Assembly: GCA_001804315.1 (NCBI GenBank)
Contig: MHFT01000036.1
Span: 1 to 46,664 of the forward strand
Direction: 5' to 3'
From: Omnitrophica bacterium RIFCSPLOWO2_12_FULL_50_11
Lineage (GTDB): Bacteria > Omnitrophota > Omnitrophia > Omnitrophales > Danuiimicrobiaceae
DNA: 46,664 nucleotides
This document shows, piece after piece, positions 3,283 through 11,648 of the stretch (position 1 is its first letter; each line of letters opens with the position of its first letter). Made by a program: the position numbers and the translations under genes. The notes below the pieces were generated by a model, which had not been told where the DNA came from, ran no database searches, and saw only the letters and a program-made list of their open reading frames with translations.

Positions 3283-3325
3283 GAGAAGGGGCATGTCCCT
3301 CCGGGAACCGGCCCCAGTCTGCCCG

Positions 3326-3931
3326 ATGATTAAAGCCATCTTGTTTGATATGGGGAATGTGCTCATCCATTTTGACGCGACGAAATCCGCCAAGGCTTTT
3401 TCAGAGCTTTTAGGCGTTCCAGAAAAGGAGCTGTGGGAGGTTTTTTTTACTTCGGCGCTTGAGCGTTCGTATACGAGAGGCGAAATTTCCTCAAAAGAGT
3501 TCTACGGTAAAATCGTTGAGCGCTTTCCGTCCAAAAAATTGGATTATGCTACCTTCGTCTATCTTTGGAACGACATTTTTACAGAGAATTCTGAGATGGA
3601 AGAACTCCTCGTTAAACTGAAAAGGAAGTATCCGCTTTATCTCATTTCGAATACGAACGAACTTCATTTCGAGTACGTGCGGAAACGATTTCGTCTGATG
3701 GGCCACTTTACCCAATGCTTTCCGTCGCACGGCGTGGGCCATCGGAAGCCGGATCCTGCTATGTTTGAACACGTCCTTCGGGAAATTCAGCTCAAACCGG
3801 ACGAAACCATTTTTATTGATGATGTAGCTGAATTCGTAGAGGCAGCAAAACGCTTTGGGATCCACGGCATCCAATTTACCTCTCGGCGGGCGCTTGAAAC
3901 TGAGCTCAGAAAACGAGGCGTTGAAGTATAA
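3326..3931 (+). CDS. HAD-superfamily hydrolase (subfamily IA)
   Basis: About 200 residues. HAD motif I is FDMGNVL (the nucleophile Asp is the first D; the second acidic position is replaced by N, as in the YihX/epoxide-hydrolase-like group). Motif II is LISNTNE, the motif III region is HRKPDPAMF, and motif IV is FIDDVAEFVEAA. It is probably a phosphatase of a small phosphorylated metabolite. I chose the ATG that gives MIKAILFD; an in-frame ATG at 3293 sits just downstream of the MITE and has AGAAGGGG in front, so a start there is possible. Confidence 0.85.
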   Translation: MIKAILFDMGNVLIHFDATKSAKAFSELLGVPEKELWEVFFTSALERSYTRGEISSKEFYGKIVERFPSKKLDYATFVYLWNDIFTENSEMEELLVKLKRKYPLYLISNTNELHFEYVRKRFRLMGHFTQCFPSHGVGHRKPDPAMFEHVLREIQLKPDETIFIDDVAEFVEAAKRFGIHGIQFTSRRALETELRKRGVEV

Positions 3932-11166: not shown

Positions 11167-11194
11167 TTGCAATTTCTAACTGCTTCTGTATAAT
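11167..11194 (+). promoter_or_regulatory. Promoter of the intron-containing tRNA-fMet
   Basis: TTGCAA (11167-11172) and TATAAT (11189-11194) are 16 bases apart, a near-consensus sigma-70 promoter. It lies 28 bases before the tRNA 5' end. Confidence 0.7.
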
Positions 11195-11221: not shown

Positions 11222-11560
11222 CGCGGGGTGGAGCAGTCTGGTAGCTCGCAAGGCTCAAATGGACACAAAACTCATAGTGGTTGTGTCCGATGGGCTCCTC
11301 GACCGGAAACGGTCGATGGATATTCTGTCAAACTCGGTGGAACCCTTGGCGGAAGCCAGAGGTAATACCGAGCCAAGCCCGTCATTAACTTTGGCGGGAA
11401 GGTGTAGAGACTAGTTGGCAGAAACCCGAAGCATGAAGAATGCGAAGGGTTAAGGTATAGTCCAGACCACAAATCCGCCGGTCATTACGGCGGAGCAGTG
11501 AAAACTGAAGTGGTACGCATAACCTTGAGGACGGAGGTTCAAATCCTCCCCCCGCTACCA
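11222..11560 (+). tRNA. Initiator tRNA-fMet(CAT), split by a group I intron
   Basis: Exon 1 is 11222-11255 and exon 2 is 11518-11560. Joined, they give a full 77-nt cloverleaf: acceptor GCGGGG/CCCCGC with a C1:T72 mismatch (the initiator hallmark), D-arm with CTGGTAG, anticodon stem CAAGG/CCTTG around CTCATAA, T-arm GGAGG-TTCAAAT-CCTCC, and an encoded CCA end. The anticodon CAT is at 11518-11520. Positions 30-31 pair with 39-40 as G-C, but 29:41 is A-U, so only two of the three usual initiator G-C pairs are present. Without the intron the loop would be normal. Confidence 0.93.
11256..11517 (+). ncRNA. Group I intron (IC3-like) in the tRNA-fMet anticodon loop
   Basis: A 262-nt insertion. The 5' exon ends in U33 and the intron ends in G (11517), as self-splicing group I introns require. 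Core signatures include AATACCGAGCCAAGCCCGT (the J4/5-P6 region, as in cyanobacterial tRNA-Leu introns) and the P7 strands GTAGAGACTAG and TATAGTCC, which pair GACTA with TAGTC around the guanosine site. A P2 hairpin GGACACAA/TTGTGTCC is at the 5' end. There is no homing-endonuclease gene. I could not settle P1 and its internal guide by eye. Confidence 0.9.
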
Positions 11561-11648
11561 TACTTACTGCCTGACGGGCAGGCAGGGAGACTTAGGCCTT
11601 GGAATCCGCCTCCGGCGGATTCCAAGGCCTTTTTCTCTTGCGGGATCA
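11539..11648. repeat. Left direct repeat of island 1 (tRNA-fMet 3' end plus terminator)
   Basis: This stretch begins in the T-loop of tRNA-fMet and runs through CCA, a GCCTGACGGGCAGGC hairpin and the terminator to TTGCGGGATCA. It recurs with few changes at 18576-18688. It is read as the attachment site copy that keeps the tRNA whole. Confidence 0.8.
11594..11634 (+). terminator. Intrinsic terminator of tRNA-fMet
   Basis: A perfect 17-bp stem (AGGCCTTGGAATCCGCC and its complement) with a TCC loop, followed by TTTTT. It lies 34 bases after the tRNA CCA end. Confidence 0.9.

Follow-up and report, generated by a model that had tools for sequence, protein, structure and literature searches.

A group I intron in the tRNA-fMet gene has been described from cyanobacteria, including Synechocystis PCC 6803 (Biniszkiewicz 1994 and Paquin 1997, as cited in PMC8450103 and PMC4033280), and P1 of the Synechocystis fMet intron carries I-Ssp6803I, a PD-(D/E)XK homing endonuclease (PMC1995217; PMC3073962, Table 1; PDB 2OST), whose ORF is reported to overlap P1/P2 (PMC3073962). 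According to a review, bacterial tRNA introns are mostly cyanobacterial, with a few in alpha- and betaproteobacteria (PMC4033280), and 36 genomes in which tRNA-fMet or tRNA-Ile2 is hidden by such introns were reported with tRNAscan-SE 2.0 (PMC8450103). PMC12641178 cites a 2025 preprint for a novel site of insertion in Patescibacteria. A literature search short of most subscription journals found no paper on fMet introns of Omnitrophota. Here we analysed a stretch of 46,664 nt (the window) from Omnitrophica bacterium RIFCSPLOWO2_12_FULL_50_11 (contig MHFT01000036.1), and we are highly confident that the transcript of this organism's single detectable tRNA-fMet gene carries a group I ribozyme within the anticodon loop, presumably descended from a mobile form by deletion of the endonuclease, and that exact splicing would restore the tRNA. 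The family itself is known; what is new is the Omnitrophota host, the likely relic in L1, the syntenic empty sites together with a sister copy, and the spread over many phyla.

The split gene and its surroundings comprise the following features.

11167 to 11194, plus strand: promoter-like site upstream of the tRNA, TTGCAA-16-TATAAT, 10/12 consensus, against a chance expectation of 0.3 in the region
11222 to 11255, plus strand: tRNA-fMet 5' exon, tRNA positions 1-33, CGCGGGGTGGAGCAGTCTGGTAGCTCGCAAGGCT, ending in AAGGCU (U33 at 11255); relatives share this 5' exon
11256 to 11517, plus strand: group I intron, 262 nt, final base omega-G at 11517
11518 to 11560, plus strand: tRNA-fMet 3' exon, from the anticodon CAT to the encoded CCA, CATAACCTTGAGGACGGAGGTTCAAATCCTCCCCCCGCTACCA, starting with CATAACC
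11594 to 11630, plus strand: intrinsic terminator-like hairpin, 17 bp, with a T run

Folding of the joined exons gives a complete 77-nt tRNA-Met(CAT) with encoded CCA and with the marks of an initiator (C1 x U72 unpaired, A11-U24 and the CAT anticodon). The first-pass annotation had placed an intron at these positions, after U33 of the anticodon loop of an initiator tRNA, and it was right to the base: AAGGCT ends the 5' exon, the intron finishes on G, CATAACC opens the 3' exon, the same U33|C34 junction is seen at syntenic empty sites, and C1 x U72 is unpaired, as in initiators. Ordinary tRNA finders reported no tRNA at 11222-11560. ARAGORN, run with introns allowed, did detect a 262-nt intron, but misplaced it and called the gene Leu(CAA), so that tRNA finders on their own mislead.

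The same annotation had assigned the intron to group I and suggested a covariance-model search as a check. With cmscan, Rfam family RF00028 (Intron_gpI) matched 11263-11473 on the plus strand with an E value of 2e-10 for 471 bases; the match is there, but its score of 45.2 bits lies below the gathering score of 50, and the family call was therefore examined further. The corresponding score of the sister intron (L125) is 70.7, and 14 of 19 sampled relatives' introns exceed the cut-off. The fold of the precursor is 8.7 SD more stable than those of dinucleotide shuffles (z = -8.7), none of 100 equalling it. The helices named from the window sequence, listed below, constituted the structure tested on an alignment of 33 introns from the same insertion site, drawn from Omnitrophota, Cyanobacteria, Patescibacteria, Acidobacteria and others.

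11252 to 11296, plus strand: P1, exon GGCU and intron CA (11252-11257) with UGGGCU (11291-11296, internal guide)
11290 to 11292, plus strand: AUG that can pair with CAU of the 3' exon, a possible P10
11300 to 11315, plus strand: P2, with a GAAA loop
11325 to 11421, plus strand: P3, CUGUCAA (11325-11331) with UUGGCAG (11415-11421), enclosing P4-P6; three pairs with double changes
11333 to 11372, plus strand: P4 (11333-11338/11367-11372), 97.5% of cells paired, and P5 (11343-11350/11355-11362)
11373 to 11402, plus strand: P6 (11373-11374/11401-11402) and P6a (11378-11384/11392-11398), the latter with double changes in 7/7 pairs
11409 to 11462, plus strand: P7, GACUA (11409-11413) with UAGUC (11458-11462), the expected guanosine-binding site; 100% paired, 3 pairs with double changes
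11423 to 11451, plus strand: P8 (11423-11427/11447-11451), 100% paired, double changes in 5/5 pairs
11467 to 11513, plus strand: P9 (11467-11470/11510-11513), P9a (11474-11480/11488-11494) and P9b (11496-11507, with a GAAA loop)

On this alignment 88.6% of cells were paired and 51 of the 78 pairs had double changes; none of 500 shuffles reached any of the measures, and a one-column shift of the partner lowered pairing to 42-44%. Covariation was found in P3, P4, P5, P6a, P7 and P8, so that the P3-P8 and P4-P6 core with its P7 pseudoknot is present, and nearly every core helix, including the P3/P7 pseudoknot, is backed by covariation across same-site introns, which bears out the group I assignment. 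In P1, all 33 introns have the U33-G wobble at the 5' splice site; omega-G is also invariant among the relatives, because the search pattern demanded a terminal G. Less constant are P2 and P5, which vary among relatives, the two innermost window pairs of P3, which are missing in many or most of them, and the L1 hairpin and inner part of P8, which are not conserved. The loops of L2 and P9b are GAAA in the window and GNRA in most relatives, as expected for the IC3 subgroup, to which the intron may belong.

As far as can be judged from the sequence, this is apparently an intact, ORF-less tRNA-fMet group I intron that would be self-splicing. Exogenous guanosine, bound in P7, would attack after U33, held in place for the attack by the conserved U-G wobble of P1; the freed U33 would then attack after the intron's terminal G and be joined to C34, so that the anticodon loop with CAU is restored. 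Splicing in the cell might instead require the help of a protein, such as an RNA chaperone or a tRNA synthetase, as many group I introns do require cofactors, and both the sub-threshold Rfam score and the variability of P2 and P5 could be read in this way. However, small tRNA introns of this kind, including the cyanobacterial fMet and Azoarcus Ile introns, self-splice in vitro, and the core looks stable, with GNRA loops in L2 and P9b and with P7 and P8 paired throughout, so a need for protein help appears rather unlikely. We infer that the intron is spliced in vivo.

The intron had also been described as lacking a homing endonuclease. This holds for an intact gene, the longest open frame of the intron being 52 aa and a PF11645 search giving no match in the genome (the identical search was positive in three genomes of the order), but the start of the ORF seems to have been kept in L1, where two features overlap.

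11259 to 11273, plus strand: ATGGACACAAAACTC (MDTKL) in L1, likely what remains of the first codons of a gene for an I-Ssp6803I-type homing endonuclease
11261 to 11288, plus strand: L1 hairpin, GGACACAA / UUGUGUCC, 8 bp, built on the putative relic

For comparison, a scan of 84,980 genomes for the 3' splice junction gave at least 114 stretches. With all loci pooled and a 5' exon required, 93 distinct introns were extracted. Short introns make up 75 of these 93 same-site introns, while most of the long ones have an ORF in L1; in two relatives the L1 ORF matches PF11645, and one matches PDB 2OST at 1.5e-44. A 14-base degenerate start motif, DTGRRYACNAARCT, lies within the first 45 nt of 15/18 long introns and of 2/75 short ones, namely the window intron and that of Aphanothece hegewaldii. 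In the latter fMet intron (L078, near 3286-3540 on the minus strand), the endonuclease ORF has been deleted except for its two ends. The short introns, 15,727 bases in all, contain no further occurrence of the motif, for which the chance is ~1.5e-5 per intron or ~1e-3 over 75 introns. In a locus of the same order with an intact endonuclease ORF (L176), the intron begins with CAAGTGGATACAAAACTC, the window intron begins with CAAATGGACACAAAACTC, and the motif has an equal offset in both. The MDTKL codons are thus likely to be a relic of a deleted I-Ssp6803I-type endonuclease. As for the 3' terminus of that ORF, we make no claim that L1 retains it, as it aligned only weakly, with a few scattered identities.

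The alternative is that MDTKL arose by chance as part of a newly grown P1-extension hairpin and is no trace of an endonuclease. The string does form one arm of a perfect 8-bp hairpin, possibly selected for itself, and it is missing from the short L1 of the sister intron L125. Nonetheless, an exact 14-base match at the offset seen in L176, the low chance expectation with no occurrence elsewhere in the short introns, and a remnant of the same sort with both ORF ends in A. hegewaldii make coincidence improbable. If the codons are a relic, the short L1 of L125 means that the endonuclease was lost there either independently or more cleanly. The ancestor would have been a mobile intron with an I-Ssp6803I-type endonuclease in its P1 loop, homing into fMet genes, from which the endonuclease was presumably removed by a deletion that left the first five codons behind. 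Its loss would make the intron immobile by itself, and the intron would persist because the fMet gene is useless unless the intron is excised exactly.

Whether initiation depends on splicing hinges on a second fMet gene, as the first-pass annotation had cautioned. The draft genome (107 contigs, 94.47% complete) was searched by RNA family and by sequence pattern. Among its 42 tRNA matches above the Rfam cut-off, two further genes with a CAT anticodon have G1-C72 paired and are thus of elongator or Ile2 type; with ≤3 mismatches allowed, the split gene was the sole match to the fMet pattern without mismatch in the draft. Neither the tRNA family search nor the pattern search found an uninterrupted fMet gene in the 94.5%-complete draft, so that initiation of translation probably depends on splicing of the intron, and at this completeness a second, unseen copy is unlikely. 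A weak tRNA-like 3' half (C22:34841-34879, minus strand) was dismissed as a second split tRNA, as no 5' half or intron was seen with it.

It could still be argued that this copy of the gene is dead or secondary, with an uninterrupted one lying in an unassembled part of the genome, given that four expected tRNAs (Ile-GAT, Ala-TGC, Asn and Lys-TTT) were likewise not found in this 107-contig draft and that interrupted and uninterrupted fMet copies coexist in two genomes of the same order (G028 and G041) and in G346. However, no damage is seen in the exons, the core helices, the promoter-like site, the terminator or the CCA, and most genomes of the same family show a single fMet match; we therefore regard this possibility as very improbable.

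The gene order eno-ftsB-fMet is common to the window, to the intron-bearing G007 and G041, and to four genomes of the same family (G003, G004, G006 and G008) with an uninterrupted fMet gene at the syntenic place, which argues that the contig is the host's. Two related genomes are the following.

G007, in the window's family, with intron L125: Candidatus Omnitrophota bacterium NC_groundwater_1340_Ag_S-0.2um_49_72
G038, in the window's order: Omnitrophica GWA2_52_8

The G007 intron is 74% identical to the window intron, and the two are sisters in the intron tree (support 99/92), within a cluster from Omnitrophota. Across the phylum, the fMet pattern was matched in 143 of 384 sampled genomes, and the G of an interrupted gene was seen in at least 38 genomes among the matches listed, plus the window's own. 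A role of the intron as a regulatory switch for translation initiation, sensing for instance guanosine or magnesium, is very improbable, for although the sole detectable fMet gene is split and group I splicing uses guanosine, the closest relatives of the same family have no intron at the syntenic locus, and such patchy presence fits a mobile element and not a conserved control.

Beyond the phylum, the view that this family is mainly cyanobacterial and proteobacterial proved too narrow: the tree of same-site introns takes in 17 phylum-level groups among the matches listed, a count based on submitters' titles that contaminated bins may inflate. Junction matches in Bifidobacterium were dropped, having neither 5' exon nor core, as were 23 of 24 viral contigs with the junction pattern, in which no fMet 5' exon lay upstream. 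The remaining viral contig, of 84.5 kb from IMG/VR (L259, 8932-8961, minus strand), does have this exon, in an fMet gene with a 199-nt intron, and may be host DNA or a prophage beside the tRNA. The fMet introns of L114 and L142 (935 and 952 nt) have another long open frame (279 and 245 aa) without a PF11645-type start, which in L114 overlaps the intron core.

In two genomes an intact I-Ssp6803I-type endonuclease gene adjoins the interrupted fMet gene, upstream and divergent in G025 (L261, 1501-1908) and downstream on the same strand in G045 (L262, minus strand); the gap is roughly 160-200 nt, and the introns there are ORF-less. Intron and adjoining endonuclease are possibly separate homing partners in these two cases, and their arrangement suggests that the two can home as separate neighbours. 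A broader proposal, to which we would give an even chance, is that one mobile intron/endonuclease lineage has entered and left the fMet gene repeatedly across many bacterial phyla, with the two components able to home side by side, and that protein starts are ribozyme-dependent in many uncultured lineages, including the Omnitrophota host.

Another group I intron of the window's genome lies in 23S rRNA (C33, 26666-26817, minus strand; locus L033, 967-1562) and has an ORF of 187 aa that is LAGLIDADG-endonuclease-like (GFVDGEGSF).

The initiator tRNA is essential, and its gene here is wholly missed by standard annotation, so that such genomes seem to be without tRNA-fMet. A family known from cyanobacteria is now extended to Omnitrophota and many other phyla, with both occupied and empty versions of one syntenic locus inside one family and, in the window, an intron that preserves an apparent step of the homing cycle, the loss of the endonuclease. 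Comparison can thereby test the cycle of gain and loss, as well as what it costs to have a ribozyme inside an essential tRNA.

Other bacterial tRNA introns, those of Leu-UAA, Ile-CAU and Arg-CCU, are likewise small, ORF-less and placed in the anticodon loop, with a similar core, but they occupy other genes and other insertion points. The closest system is the cyanobacterial tRNA-fMet intron, with which the window shares the gene, the U33|C34 position (as aligned with cyanobacterial loci), P1 and the core; it differs in its Omnitrophota host, in clustering with Omnitrophota copies rather than cyanobacterial ones and in having no ORF beyond the likely start. Relatives' L1 ORFs match PF11645/2OST and so resemble I-Ssp6803I, and at that same place the window has its putative relic, retaining only about five codons.
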